A stretch of DNA of 64,000 bases, taken from Flavobacterium hydatis. Its GTDB lineage: Bacteria; Bacteroidota; Bacteroidia; Flavobacteriales; Flavobacteriaceae. The DNA lies in the NCBI RefSeq assembly GCF_000737695.1, contig NZ_JPRM01000002.1:62001-126000 (forward strand), in the 5' to 3' direction. A program made the translations under genes and the position numbers. The notes below the pieces were generated by a model. That model saw only the letters and a program-made list of their open reading frames with translations. It ran no database searches and had not been told where the DNA came from. Shown here in pieces: positions 14,172-62,010 of this stretch. Position 1 is the stretch's first letter; each line of letters starts with the position of its first letter.

Positions 14172-14201
14172 TTATTCAAATATTATTCAGCTTTTGAATA
14201 A
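14172..14201. promoter_or_regulatory. Inverted repeat operator, cassette 1
   Basis: Perfect 9-nt arms TTATTCAAA (14172-14180) and TTTGAATAA (14193-14201) separated by 12 nt. The same element precedes all three peptide genes, each time 20 nt upstream of a -7 box, a position suited to an activator or repressor dimer. Confidence 0.7.
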
Positions 14202-14221
14202 GCAGTTATCAGGATAAATAA

Positions 14222-14229
14222 TATTTTTG
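14222..14229 (+). promoter_or_regulatory. -7 element (TATTTTTG) of peptide cassette 1
   Basis: TATTTTTG fits TAnnTTTG. It lies exactly 20 nt past the inverted repeat and about 110 nt before the ATG. There is no TTG at the usual -33 distance, which suggests that the promoter depends on the protein bound to the repeat. Confidence 0.55.
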
Positions 14230-14338
14230 AAAAAATAGAATTATTCTTACAATTAAATATGTTTTCGCGTACGAAGGATATATACAAGTAAGGGTGTCTT
14301 TAAAAAATGTAGGATAAAAAAAATTAAAGTCAATTATT

Positions 14339-14473
14339 ATGAATGTAGGAAATCAATTGCCAGAAGAAGTTTTAGTAATAGAAAATCAATTATTAGAAAA
14401 ATTTCAAGTTGAAGAATTAGAAAAACGATATGAATTCGGTTGGATGCTAAGTATTCTTGATGCAGTAATATAG
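14339..14473 (+). CDS. Candidate modified-peptide precursor 1 (44 aa)
   Basis: The ORF is 44 residues long and was found by comparing the three repeats. It starts MNVGNQLPEEVLV and shares EKFQVEELEKRYEFGW with the other two peptides, then ends FGWMLSILDAVI. The acidic, helical N-terminal part looks like a leader peptide; the Trp at residue 35 and the hydrophobic tail look like a core. There is no signal peptide, no double-Gly and no Cys. The gene sits between its own promoter and terminator. Function is inferred from the neighbouring prenyl-synthase-like enzyme and protease. It is the most diverged copy, lacking the terminal Lys of copies 2 and 3. Confidence 0.8.
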   Translation: MNVGNQLPEEVLVIENQLLEKFQVEELEKRYEFGWMLSILDAVI

Positions 14474-14499
14474 TAGTAAGTAAATTATCTGCTTTTCTT

Positions 14500-14533
14500 A
14501 GAAGCATGCATTATTGTGTGCTTCTTTTTTTTT
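14500..14533 (+). terminator. Terminator of peptide cassette 1
   Basis: AGAAGCA (14500-14506) pairs with TGCTTCT (14519-14525), followed by a run of T residues. It lies 26 nt past the stop codon, so peptide 1 is probably made from a short monocistronic transcript. Confidence 0.75.
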
Positions 14534-14598
14534 ACATATCCTAAGATAAAAGGCAATGGGGGTTGGTGTAATTTGAGGATTATGACAACAATATTTTA

Positions 14599-14628
14599 TT
14601 ATTCAAATATTATTCGGTTTTTGAATAA
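14599..14628. promoter_or_regulatory. Inverted repeat operator, cassette 2
   Basis: Arms TTATTCAAA (14599-14607) and TTTGAATAA (14620-14628) with a 12-nt spacer, identical in arms to cassette 1. Conservation of arms and spacing across copies argues for protein binding. Confidence 0.7.
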
Positions 14629-14648
14629 GCAGCAATAAGGATAAGTGA

Positions 14649-14656
14649 TACTTTTG
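14649..14656 (+). promoter_or_regulatory. -7 element (TACTTTTG) of peptide cassette 2
   Basis: A match to TAnnTTTG, 20 nt after the inverted repeat. The expected leader is about 107 nt and contains the conserved block TTTTTTGCGTACGAAGAATG. Confidence 0.6.
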
Positions 14657-14769
14657 AAATATAAAACTAATCTTACAATTTAAGTATTTTTTTGCGTACG
14701 AAGAATGTATTCGGATTTAAGAGTGTTTTAAAAAAAATTGTAGTATTAAAAATTTTAAAAAAATTCACC

Positions 14770-14901
14770 ATGAATCAAGAAAATCAATTACCAGTAGAAG
14801 TATTAGTAGAAAATCAATTAGTTGAAAAATTTCAAGTTGAAGAACTAGAAAAAAGATACGAATTTGGTTGGGTTACTTCTGTTATTGATGCATTAAAATA
14901 A
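14770..14901 (+). CDS. Candidate modified-peptide precursor 2 (43 aa)
   Basis: A 43-residue peptide beginning MNQENQLPVEVLV, with the shared EKFQVEELEKRYEFGW and a tail reading FGWVTSVIDALK. The frame is open further upstream to 14692, but I choose the ATG at 14770: it aligns with the starts of copies 1 and 3, and the upstream stretch is the conserved untranslated leader. The Trp at residue 34 is invariant. Leader-like and core-like parts are as in copy 1. It is closer to copy 3 than to copy 1, both in protein and in flanking DNA. Confidence 0.85.
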   Translation: MNQENQLPVEVLVENQLVEKFQVEELEKRYEFGWVTSVIDALK

Positions 14902-14927
14902 TTGTAAGTAAATTATCTGCTTTTCTT

Positions 14928-14961
14928 AGAAGTATACATTTATTGCATATTTCTTTTTTTT
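14928..14961 (+). terminator. Terminator of peptide cassette 2
   Basis: AGAAGTAT (14928-14935) pairs with ATATTTCT (14947-14954, one G-T pair), followed by T residues. Its position relative to the stop matches cassettes 1 and 3. Confidence 0.65.
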
Positions 14962-14981
14962 AAAGTGAGTGGATATTTTTA

Positions 14982-15011
14982 TTATGCAAATATTATTCGG
15001 TTTTTGAATAA
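14982..15011. promoter_or_regulatory. Inverted repeat operator, cassette 3
   Basis: Arms TTATGCAAA (14982-14990, one change from the other copies) and TTTGAATAA (15003-15011), again with a 12-nt spacer identical to that of cassette 2. Confidence 0.68.
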
Positions 15012-15031
15012 GCAGCAATAAGGATAAAAAA

Positions 15032-15039
15032 TACTTTTG
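15032..15039 (+). promoter_or_regulatory. -7 element (TACTTTTG) of peptide cassette 3
   Basis: TACTTTTG, again exactly 20 nt past the inverted repeat. This is the nearest promoter upstream of the modifying-enzyme genes and may drive them by read-through. Confidence 0.6.
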
Positions 15040-15152
15040 AAACATAGAATTAGTCTTACAATTTAAGTGTGTTTTTGCGTACGAAGAATGTATTCGGATT
15101 TAAGAGTGTTTTAAAAAAAATGTAGTATTAAAAATTTTTAAAAAAAATTATC

Positions 15153-15287
15153 ATGAATTTACAAAATCAATTAACAGAAGAAATTTTAGTATTAGAGAAC
15201 CAATTAGTTGAAAAATTTCAAGTTGAAGAACTAGAAAAAAGATACGAATTTGGTTGGGGTACTGATATCATTGATGCATTTAAATAA
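15153..15287 (+). CDS. Candidate modified-peptide precursor 3 (44 aa)
   Basis: A 44-residue ORF starting MNLQNQLTEEILVLE, with the same EKFQVEELEKRYEFGW segment and the tail FGWGTDIIDAFK. The changes from copy 2 after the Trp are nearly all in the tail, as expected if the tail is the mature, diversified product and the rest a conserved recognition leader. It is the copy next to the enzyme gene (94 nt away), with a strong hairpin between. No transporter gene is adjacent. Confidence 0.82.
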   Translation: MNLQNQLTEEILVLENQLVEKFQVEELEKRYEFGWGTDIIDAFK

Positions 15288-15314
15288 TATCTAATATTAT
15301 TATTTGCTTTTCTT

Positions 15315-15350
15315 AGAAGTATGCATTTTTAATGCATACTTCTGTTTTTT
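15315..15350 (+). terminator. Strong hairpin between peptide 3 and the enzyme gene (possible attenuator)
   Basis: A perfect 13-bp stem, AGAAGTATGCATT (15315-15327) with AATGCATACTTCT (15331-15343), a 3-nt loop, then GTTTTTT. Only 31 nt separate it from the enzyme ATG and no new promoter is seen, so partial read-through would give much more peptide than enzyme. Confidence 0.78.
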
Positions 15351-15381
15351 ATAAGATGTTTAGTTTAAAAAAAGATCAAGT

Positions 15382-17274
15382 ATGAGATTGAAGTTTACGA
15401 GTTATATTCAAAATCTGTCTATACCGGATAATTTCAAATCGGTAGTTTTAGATGCCAATTTCACCGCTGGTAATCCGATTTATTATCAAAAATATCCTGA
15501 ACTTTTTGCACAGGTTTTCCTTGTAGAGAGTAAAAATTTGGAACTGCTTAATATTGCGGGCTATTTATATTATCAGGCAACATTATTTACAGATACTTTG
15601 ATAGATGAAAAAGATTTATCGAAATTTCCTTTAGTCACCGTTTGTCAGGAGGAAAGCATTAAAATTCTAACCAGTATTTATGGTTTAGAAAATAGTTTTT
15701 GGCAACTATGGAATACTCGTAGAAACGAATATTTTGAAGCCATTTATTTAGAAAAATCTTTTCTTGAAAAAGAGGTTATTGCCATTGAAGAGTATGAAAT
15801 ACTAGCAGACAAAAAATCGGCATTTGGTAAAGTTGCTATCGATTGTTTGTTTAGCATCGACAACTCTAAAGACAATGATTTATACGAGCAATTATTACTT
15901 TCACATAAATATTTTTCGGTTGCATTTCAATTAAATGATGATATCCAGGATTTAAAAGCAGACGTAAAGAAAGGACAGTTTAACTGGGCTTTTTATTTAT
16001 TGAAACAAAATAAGATGTCTGATCATGCACCTGAAAAACTGGAAAAATACATTCATATTCGAGGCATTTCTAAACAAATGTATCAACTTGGAATTTCCTA
16101 TTGCGACAAAGCATTAGAATTGGTTAAGGACATAGATGTTCCCGAATGGAAAAAGGTTCTGTATGATACGAAAAAGGCTTTTGTAACTTTTATTATTGAA
16201 ATAGATAATTATCTGGAAATTTTGACAGCAGATATTACTCTAATTAGTCAAAAGATTGCAGAAAATAATAATCAGAATAGTATATCGTCGGCCATAACGT
16301 ATATAAAGAACAAACAACAAGAAAACGGAAGTTGGAGAGAATATGTAAATCAGGGTGGAATTAGTACTACTTGGGCAAGTGCTTTTATCCTTTCTAAAAT
16401 TTCAGAAAATAAAATTCTTCAGCGCTCTTTTGAAAATGAAATTCCAAAAGCGATTTCTTTTTTAGAAAACAATCATAAAGATGTTTTATGGAGTTACAAC
16501 GGTACTTGGATTGAAGATTCTGATTCGGCCAATTTTGCATTACTTTCTTATTTTCTAAACAATAAAGAAATTGATACTGATATTCAGGAATACTGGCTTA
16601 ATTTTCAGAATAGTGATGGAGGTTTCTCCACCTATTATGATGAGAATAAATTATTGACTTCATTAGACGATAGGGTTATCTCAAAAGTTTCCGGATGGAT
16701 ACATTCGCATGATTGTGTGAGTGCGGTAAGTTTTTACTTTTTGGCAAAAACAAATCAACAACCAGAAGCTTTTATTAAACTGAAAAAATATTTTGAAGCA
16801 AAAACAGAGCAGGAATTAAATTCATATTGGTGGACTAGTAATATTTATGTTTTTTACTATCTGGCAAAGACATATCATTTACTGGGTGAGAAACAACAAT
16901 TATCATTAATTATAGATAAGGTAAAAAGGGAACAAGCTGAAAATGGAAGTTTTGGTGATAAATATGGAGAAAATTTATTTTATACCGGATTAGCACTTGA
17001 AATTTTGCTTTTAGAAAATAATGAAAATGAAGCCGAGATAGAAAAAACAATCGAATATTTATTTAAAAATCAGTATCAGGATGGTTCGTGGGATAACTCA
17101 CACGCTCTGCAGGTTCCGGACTCTTCCAAAATAAAACCTGAAAATACTCCTTATCCTGTTGCTACTTTTGGTATGAATGTGAGAGCCAAAGAGTTTAACC
17201 GTTTATTTACAACTACTGTAATTTTACAAGCACTTAGTATATATGAACAAAAATATAGTACCGCAACTGTCTGA
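15382..17274 (+). CDS. Isoprenyl diphosphate synthase-like domain fused to a terpene cyclase-like barrel
   Basis: A 630-residue soluble protein with two parts. Residues 1 to about 290 resemble the class I isoprenyl synthase fold: an Asp motif DTLID (71-75) and a clear second motif FQLNDDIQDLKAD (DDxxD at 186-190). Residues about 300-625 form a squalene-cyclase/prenyltransferase-type alpha-barrel with QW-like repeats QQENGSW (312), QNSDGGF (409), EQAENGSF (517) and QYQDGSW (564). IEDSDSANFALL near 377 resembles the class II DxDD site with the last Asp replaced by Ser; the middle Asp, the usual proton donor, is kept. The barrel is about half the size of a full hopene cyclase. Next to the Trp-containing peptides, a ComQ-like role in prenylating the peptide is inferred. 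A plain terpene synthase is the alternative. Confidence 0.8.
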   Translation: MRLKFTSYIQNLSIPDNFKSVVLDANFTAGNPIYYQKYPELFAQVFLVESKNLELLNIAGYLYYQATLFTDTLIDEKDLSKFPLVTVCQEESIKILTSIYGLENSFWQLWNTRRNEYFEAIYLEKSFLEKEVIAIEEYEILADKKSAFGKVAIDCLFSIDNSKDNDLYEQLLLSHKYFSVAFQLNDDIQDLKADVKKGQFNWAFYLLKQNKMSDHAPEKLEKYIHIRGISKQMYQLGISYCDKALELVKDIDVPEWKKVLYDTKKAFVTFIIEIDNYLEILTADITLISQKIAENNNQNSISSAITYIKNKQQENGSWREYVNQGGISTTWASAFILSKISENKILQRSFENEIPKAISFLENNHKDVLWSYNGTWIEDSDSANFALLSYFLNNKEIDTDIQEYWLNFQNSDGGFSTYYDENKLLTSLDDRVISKVSGWIHSHDCVSAVSFYFLAKTNQQPEAFIKLKKYFEAKTEQELNSYWWTSNIYVFYYLAKTYHLLGEKQQLSLIIDKVKREQAENGSFGDKYGENLFYTGLALEILLLENNENEAEIEKTIEYLFKNQYQDGSWDNSHALQVPDSSKIKPENTPYPVATFGMNVRAKEFNRLFTTTVILQALSIYEQKYSTATV

Positions 17275-18421
17275 AGACATTAGTTATCATCCGTTTGGTA
17301 AAACTGATTTTTTTATTCATCAACTAACTTTTGATCACAGGATAAAAATTTCTTCTGATTTGTATCGTTTTCTAGAGTTAATCGACGGAAAGAAAAGCCT
17401 TCAGATTCTGGTAGACGAGTATAATTTGAAGTTTGAATCGATTTTGACAATCGATTTTGCAAATGATTTTTTGTTTACCAAATTAGCCAAATATGGTATA
17501 ATTCAAAGTGATGAAATTGAGGTAAAACCAAATCAAAAGCCTGATTATTTAAAGCTAAGTTTTATTTTAATAGATGTAAAGATCGTTTCAAAGTTTACAA
17601 AATACCTGAAGTATTTATTCCTGAATAATGTGCTTAAAATCAATTTGGCAATAATTTTTTTAATTTTAAGTATTTGTTTTTACGTGTTTTATAATCAAAT
17701 TTTTTATACCAATATTGCAAAATCAGAGTGGTTGATTTTCTTTCTCATGAGCTTTGTTGGAGTTACTTTTCATGAATTCGGACATGCATCTGCAGCACAT
17801 TATTACGGAGCAAAACACGGAGGAATTGGAGGAGGATTTTATCTGGTTGTACCTGTGTATTTTGCAGATGTAACTGATATCTGGAAATTGCCAAAGACGC
17901 AAAGAATTGTGGTCAATTTAGCAGGAATATATTTTGAATTTGTGTATGCTATTTTTCTAATAACTATTGGGGTTATTTTTCAATATAATTTACTGATTTT
18001 ATTAGCTTGTATTTATTCGTTGTCAATTTTAAGAAACCTAAATCCGTTTGCAAGAAGCGATGGGTATTGGGTACTTTCTGACGCGATTGAAAAGCCAAAT
18101 TTAATGCACCATGGATTTCAAAAAATAAAACAAATTTTCACATCTGGCAATACTATCAAAACATGGAAAGCAATAGATTATTTTCTGTTATTTTATGGTT
18201 TAGTAAATTATAGCTTTATATCATTTTTTGTCTATATCGTTTTAATTAAAAACCCTGATTCTATTATATATTTTCCTCAAAATCTGTGGCGTTTTATCAC
18301 AACGATTATGGAACCTGATTCTCAATTTTCAGTAGCACAGGTTGGAAAACTTTTCCTACCACTATTGTTTTTTTATTTAGTTTTTAAATGGTTGAGAATC
18401 ATATTAATTAAAGCGAAATAG
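17243..18421 (+). CDS. Membrane M50-type metalloprotease with PqqD-like N-terminal domain
   Basis: A 392-residue integral membrane protein. Residues about 13-95 look like a PqqD-type peptide-recognition (RRE) domain: HPFGKTDFFIHQL, then SSDLYRFLELIDGKKSLQIL, close to the PqqD pattern of a segment ending in a DG turn. Hydrophobic helices follow from about 130. The zinc site is HEFGH (His177-His181), and NLNPFARSDGYW (265-276) is the third-ligand segment of the M50 group found in peptide-modification clusters. The gene overlaps the fusion-enzyme gene by 32 nt, implying translational coupling. It probably cleaves the modified peptide or releases it at the membrane. No dedicated ABC transporter is nearby. 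Confidence 0.82.
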   Translation: MNKNIVPQLSEDISYHPFGKTDFFIHQLTFDHRIKISSDLYRFLELIDGKKSLQILVDEYNLKFESILTIDFANDFLFTKLAKYGIIQSDEIEVKPNQKPDYLKLSFILIDVKIVSKFTKYLKYLFLNNVLKINLAIIFLILSICFYVFYNQIFYTNIAKSEWLIFFLMSFVGVTFHEFGHASAAHYYGAKHGGIGGGFYLVVPVYFADVTDIWKLPKTQRIVVNLAGIYFEFVYAIFLITIGVIFQYNLLILLACIYSLSILRNLNPFARSDGYWVLSDAIEKPNLMHHGFQKIKQIFTSGNTIKTWKAIDYFLLFYGLVNYSFISFFVYIVLIKNPDSIIYFPQNLWRFITTIMEPDSQFSVAQVGKLFLPLLFFYLVFKWLRIILIKAK

Positions 18422-61697: not shown

Positions 61698-62010
61698 TAT
61701 AATGGTTTAAGAGGGAACAAGATAATAAAATATCGAAGTATGCTTTATTTACAGATATAAATAAAAGCTTTTTGCATCTAAAAAATGTATTTGAGCATAC
61801 GAATGCATTATTCTTTTAAAATCTATTATTCGAATGCTAAAGTTGTGTTTTTGATTGCGCATAAAATAGGGGATTGGCTCTGTGATTATATTCGCTTTCA
61901 AATATATAAATCATGATAAAACTGATTCTTCTATTCGCATTATTTTTAGTAAATGAGCTAAAAAGTATTCTTTTTTAAACAATCCAAAAAAACACTTAAA
62001 CCTAAACAAA
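61698..62010. other. Divergent intergenic region
   Basis: Two copies of CGAATGC (61800-61806, 61831-61837) lie 31 nt apart as a direct repeat, near three helical turns. LytTR regulators often bind direct repeats, so this is a possible site, with low confidence. No gene is seen here. Confidence 0.3.

Follow-up and report, generated by a model that had tools for sequence, protein, structure and literature searches.

In the 64,000-nucleotide stretch of Flavobacterium hydatis DNA analyzed here (the window; positions 62,001 to 126,000 of contig NZ_JPRM01000002.1), a cassette is inserted between sppA and folK that carries, in order, three short precursor open reading frames (ORFs), the gene for a 630-aa fused enzyme, and an M50 metalloprotease gene overlapping the enzyme gene by 32 nt. 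We propose, with a probability of roughly 0.84, that the cassette makes three short peptides, each with a tryptophan predicted to bear a ring-closed terpene, and it is best read as a peptide-terpene system explained by a published kind of enzyme. The gene layout (14172..18421) had been described in a first-pass annotation made from the letters of the sequence, and the ORFs and their order proved real when reread.

The fused enzyme joins an N-terminal P domain to a C domain, and confident fold models match solved structures with the prenyl-synthase and class II cyclase folds, in agreement with the earlier proposal of isoprenyl-synthase Asp motifs fused to a terpene-cyclase-like part. Both Asp motifs are present in the P domain, with a Gln just before the second, and the C domain, of the terpene-cyclase type, is predicted to carry the catalytic Asp. 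From the alignment and tree of P domains, 10 loci (incomplete, interrupted or distant) and 9 redundant or truncated copies were omitted. D186, D187 and D190 of the second Asp motif are kept in 78/78 aligned rows, whereas the RRG expected after the first motif is found at that place in 0/78 P domains versus 3/3 synthases of the same genome. In trans-prenyl diphosphate synthases, the RRG following DDxxD has a role in binding isopentenyl diphosphate; judged by its motifs, the P domain departs from this pattern and would not be classed as an ordinary synthase of that family.

According to a 2026 review (PMC13290415) of work by Hubrich et al. (2024, Chem 10:3224), the enzymes ChrPC and NctPC possess P and C domains, prenylate a peptide Trp and cyclize the chain; ChrPC is described there as having a trans-prenyl-synthase-like P domain that acts on an internal Trp, and NctPC as a prenyltransferase fused to an MstE-like cyclase that adds a C20 chain to Trp and then cyclizes it. 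The window enzyme resembles ChrPC, as the review describes it, in its fused P and C domains and predicted internal Trp acceptor, and three features of this kind were found: a P domain fold with its motifs, a C domain with a catalytic Asp, and a neighboring precursor gene whose peptide has a leader and an internal Trp. Since such a fused maturase is already published (PMC13290415), the architecture is not new, and the novelty claimed by the first-pass annotation has to be withdrawn. The shared leader, the site-2 protease headed by a ribosomal peptide recognition element (RRE) and the palindromes of the window cassette may or may not feature in the ChrPC paper. The cassette makes the published architecture a findable class, in which leader motif and protease mark precursor genes that curated libraries miss.

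The three tandem short ORFs with an invariant FGW are indeed present, and they share the block EKFQVEELEKRYEFGW, which is identical in all three, with no amino acid change among the copies. In the nine codons after the Trp, the copies differ by 4 to 6 replacements and 0 to 1 silent changes; copies 2 and 3 are identical over 48/48 positions of the block and 135/145 bases upstream, yet they carry 4 tail replacements. Because the block is invariant while the tail codons change mostly by replacement, the copies look, at the level of sequence, like a leader that stays constant joined to a core that varies. The 22 precursors compared with Pfam and NCBIfam gave no match better than E 0.019, and of 7993 candidates scored with a profile built from them, 770 database proteins reached E ≤ 0.001. 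Among the 120 profile matches listed, all 120 have a Trp at offset 2 to 4, a count biased toward Trp because the profile itself contains it. The leader strings were absent from the literature searched, which lacked the likeliest place, Hubrich et al. 2024, and we do not claim that they are unpublished.

In many Bacteroidota, this leader is again found next to these two enzymes. A protein search with the fused enzyme gave 218 relatives among 7995 candidates scored; a contig scan with this single protein found nothing, and one with an alignment of 28 relatives found 78 named loci. Three of these (L093-L095, short or distant matches) were dropped before counting, and the 75 that remain include two near-identical sets (L080-L084; L046-L048 with L054). 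An adjacent leader-type short peptide, counted by a regular expression on the leader with no Trp in the pattern, is present in 62/75 loci; where the sequence extends 2 kb or more upstream and 2.5 kb or more downstream, the count is 50/56. Of 68 loci with room for it, 66 have an M50 gene somewhere in the locus, and 57 have it directly downstream of the enzyme. All 90 distinct precursors (54 loci) contain a Trp, at most 10 residues from the leader in 88 and at offset 2 to 3 in 73, against a background in which a random 10-residue stretch holds a Trp in 13.5% of 6208 other short ORFs. Among 398 sampled genomes of the genus, 15 have a match to the fused enzyme, a count that takes in the window genome and some partial matches; its alignment was matched in 11/395 sampled genomes of the order (own included).

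We propose the following model for the cassette. The XRE protein would control the three palindrome-headed precursor genes, and the leader FQVEELEKRYE would bring each precursor to the enzymes. The P domain would then ionize a prenyl diphosphate (C15 or C20, made elsewhere in the cell) and bond the prenyl group to the Trp of FGW; C20 is favored over C15, as the substrate of MstE is a geranylgeranyl arene. Through D381, the counterpart of MstE D109, the C domain would protonate the chain and thereby close the rings. The terpene would tether the peptide to the membrane; there, the M50 protein may grip the leader with its RRE and cut near EF-GW at its site-2 active site, a position suggested by analogy with daptides. 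Since the cassette is without a transporter gene, export of the product may be a second task of the M50 protein, a role also proposed for EpeP.

Several known systems share parts of this scheme. MstE, a monodomain class II cyclase, resembles the C domain in its fold, its DADxT motif and GWxxHxCVSA, and we count its aryl-geranylgeranyl substrate as a further likeness; it differs in being free-standing, in acting on a small molecule and in an identity of only ~19%. The RRE head of the protease is supported by a confident fold model, which fits the PqqD-like N terminus earlier noted on the overlapping M50 gene. In daptide systems, MpaP likewise fuses an RRE to an intramembrane site-2 protease, with the leader ELExMEAP to compare with ELEKRYEF in the window, and the window protease matches the NCBIfam daptide HExxH model at 6e-31, below the cut-off (108 of the 300 bits required). 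The epipeptide protein EpeP, also of the M50 type, is thought both to cut and to export. As far as the source describes them, daptides have decarboxylase, aminotransferase and methyltransferase genes and an invariant C-terminal Thr (PMC10036551); the cassette differs in having none of these amine-forming enzyme genes, and its tails end in I or K.

The comparison with ComQ, drawn in the first-pass annotation, stands in part. ComQ/ComX quorum sensing works with a linked sensor kinase and response regulator, neither of which is among the genes of the cassette. ComQ and PalQ are isoprene-synthase-superfamily enzymes that prenylate a Trp of the peptides ComX and PalX, and the Asp and Gln spacing of PalQ is that of the window P domain; in the account given by the source (PMC10853753), no cyclase domain is described for them, whereas the window enzyme has one. 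ComQ is also without the second Asp motif (PMC10853753), which is intact here. It is thus a partial analog, and membership in the ComQ-type pheromone systems was rejected on the grounds of the intact second Asp motif and the lack of a kinase in the cassette. The protease for ComX is given as not known (PMC10853753), whereas the window has an M50 gene overlapping that of the enzyme, so that a likely protease can be named for terpene-modified peptides.

Both halves of the enzyme come from families that make free isoprenoids, and one might suppose that it makes a free cyclic terpene, with the short ORFs as unrelated neighbors. The sole carotenoid hint noticed beside the family is an ORF that is CrtI-like by eye (L024:13594-15078), situated 2.6 kb beyond the M50 gene and part of a two-member neighbor cluster; a CrtI regular expression found none but missed this ORF, and its result is therefore void. 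Plain terpene synthesis nevertheless appears very improbable to us, as precursor and M50 gene accompany the fused enzyme in most loci, and the RRG is missing from the first-Asp region of the P domain. The link between enzyme and precursor also survives rearrangement, because in some clades (Flavobacterium, Tenacibaculum, Allomuricauda and others) the precursors are upstream of the enzyme, and in other clades (Spirosoma, Pedobacter, Belliella and others) they are found downstream of the protease. A neighboring cytochrome P450 had been named in advance as a sign of plain terpene synthesis; by regular expression, an ORF (300 to 1300 aa) with the P450 haem motif occurs in 0/75 loci. Taken with the co-occurrence of precursor and protease, this supports the first-pass interpretation of a terpene-modified peptide cassette, which is also the best reading of the mechanism. 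Also improbable, if less so, is a Trp prenylated as in ComX with a C domain that does not cyclize the chain on the peptide, being inactive or lipid-holding only. It draws support from P-only relatives beside a precursor and an M50 gene (L060 and the Tyr branch described below), which show that some products do without a C domain.

With respect to function, we favor with modest confidence a secreted antagonist over a pheromone, because the three tails differ and the cassette has no kinase or receptor gene. A ComX-like signaling pheromone with its receptor elsewhere in the genome is a rather unlikely but serious alternative, given that ComX is itself a prenyl-Trp pheromone (PMC10853753) and that the cassette's own XRE regulator and the palindrome before each precursor could form a feedback switch. 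Histidine-kinase and response-regulator clusters each occur in 5/76 neighborhoods (75 loci and the window), together in four (L023, L038, L039, L068). Against this, a set of antagonists better suits the three different tails of the window and the number of precursors in relatives, which reaches 6 in a locus, and the cassette has no kinase or receptor gene.

Enzymes consisting of a P domain occur naturally. In Flavobacterium araucananum (L060, 7980-8864), such an enzyme of 294 aa stands directly before the M50 gene, with a FQIEELEMRYEMGW precursor, and it is expected to prenylate without cyclizing. A second branch was found in 13 genomes of the genus Chryseobacterium, 12/148 sampled plus that of L101 (loci L101 and L145-L156; genomes G698, G701, G878, G850, G837, G840, G841, G846, G772, G623, G851, G860 and G835), with an M50 gene alongside in 12/13 by motif. 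Together with L103, for which a precursor was not found, these enzymes are set apart in the P-domain tree by a long-stemmed 100/100 branch. Their precursors have the form KFSIEKLEERKE-FT[FCY]Y, with Tyr at offset 3 in 21/21 peptides. None of the 21 has a Trp within 10 residues, and a switch of acceptor from Trp to Tyr is therefore possible. If true, the Chryseobacterium P-only enzymes would be the first of the prenyl-synthase fold to prenylate a peptide Tyr, and the Trp and Tyr branches offer a concrete case for asking what sets acceptor choice.

The protease varies as well. Five loci (L027, L029, L032, L034, L039) have an M50 gene of ~690 aa, with a MauE domain in L029, the one scanned. Their 13 distinct precursors all have exactly two Cys (13/13), compared with any Cys in 33/77 elsewhere (Fisher 9e-5), which suggests disulfide formation in their products. 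We tentatively raise the broader idea, which we hold to be less likely than its negation, that lipidated peptides across the Bacteroidota form a class served by a single leader (FxVEELExRxE) and a single RRE-headed site-2 protease, with the chemistry swapped around these two: a terpene-cyclized Trp in the window, a Trp and a paired-Cys tail with the MauE-fused protease, and, in the Chryseobacterium P-only branch, a Tyr that takes the exact place of the Trp. In this class, the protease would cut and export, and the terpene would be the membrane handle.

Each precursor is preceded, at a distance of ~140 nt, by the palindrome, which at ≤1 mismatch occurs in those three places only of the whole genome; it is likely an operator. 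In five close relatives, a search before the precursors gave no palindrome with exact 8-base arms, so that this reading draws on the present genome only. A promoter scan gave no excess over shuffles (31 versus 28.7). XRE-like genes stand at the equivalent position in L018 and L020.

Table 1. Features of the cassette in window coordinates
Feature	Position	Strand	Remarks
XRE-type helix-turn-helix (HTH) regulator, 132 aa	13603..14001	-	PF01381 6.4e-12; divergent from precursors, inside inserted cassette
Palindrome TTATTCAAA-N12-TTTGAATAA, copy 1	14172..14201	.	0 mismatches; likely operator
Precursor peptide 1, 44 aa	14339..14473	+	core (FG)W-MLSILDAVI
Hairpin + T run after precursor 1	14500..14525	+	z -3.9; likely terminator
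Palindrome, copy 2	14599..14628	.	
Precursor peptide 2, 43 aa from ATG	14770..14901	+	core (FG)W-VTSVIDALK
Weaker hairpin after precursor 2	14928..14954	+	z -1.1, not beyond chance
Palindrome, copy 3	14982..15011	.	1 mismatch
Precursor peptide 3, 44 aa	15153..15287	+	core (FG)W-GTDIIDAFK
Hairpin + T run after precursor 3	15314..15344	+	z -6.4; likely terminator
Fused maturase, 630 aa	15382..17274	+	P domain + C domain
P domain (fused maturase)			residues 1 to ~290, trans-prenyl-diphosphate-synthase fold; D71/D75, K145, Q183, D186/D187/D190/D194
C domain (fused maturase)			residues ~293-625, MstE-like class II terpene cyclase; D379-S-D381, GWIHSHDCVSA
RRE-headed site-2 (M50) metalloprotease, 392 aa	17243..18421	+	RRE fold residues 1-91, HEFGH 177-181, DGYW 273-276

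The limits of the cassette follow from its flanks. folK sequence is found on the flank upstream of sppA in 27/29 sppA loci fetched from other genomes, the two without it being L135 (contig edge) and L139; in the closest relative (L116, sppA 97% identical), sppA and folK are ~125 nt apart, and the XRE gene is not between them in relatives. In the window, this gap holds the XRE gene, the three precursors, the fused enzyme and the protease, with no other ORF of at least 90 aa. As to its provenance, no relative was confirmed in viral contigs, and the single weak plasmid match, from Hymenobacter, covers 39%; phage and plasmid origins were rejected. So was a role in anti-phage defense, as the enzyme, the protease and precursor 1 all lacked a PADLOC match; five HTH models were hit by the XRE protein, weakly.

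Related loci show further variation. A gene with a CarbopepD_reg-like domain lies near 50/75 loci (e.g., L018:6776-7999, L033:980-2167), often between precursor and enzyme; two of four representatives scanned were above the Pfam cut-off, and the gene is absent from the window cassette. A gene resembling a radical S-adenosylmethionine (SAM) maturase is near the fused enzyme in 6/75 loci (L035, L038, L051, L053, L076, L092); the one representative scanned gave a weak Pfam match, and an extra modification is possible. In L080, L081, L082, L083 and L084, the clusters of Epilithonimonas and Chryseobacterium records share at least 99.8% identity across as much as 12 kb, which points to a recent move; in the copy from C. 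mucoviscidosis (L083), the enzyme gene contains an insertion. Two systems with differing precursor sets adjoin in L021 and L022, and the first fused gene of L022 is split by a stop codon. Finally, the precursors of L011/L097 and L158 combine the same leader with a Trp near the C terminus and form a distinct substrate subgroup.
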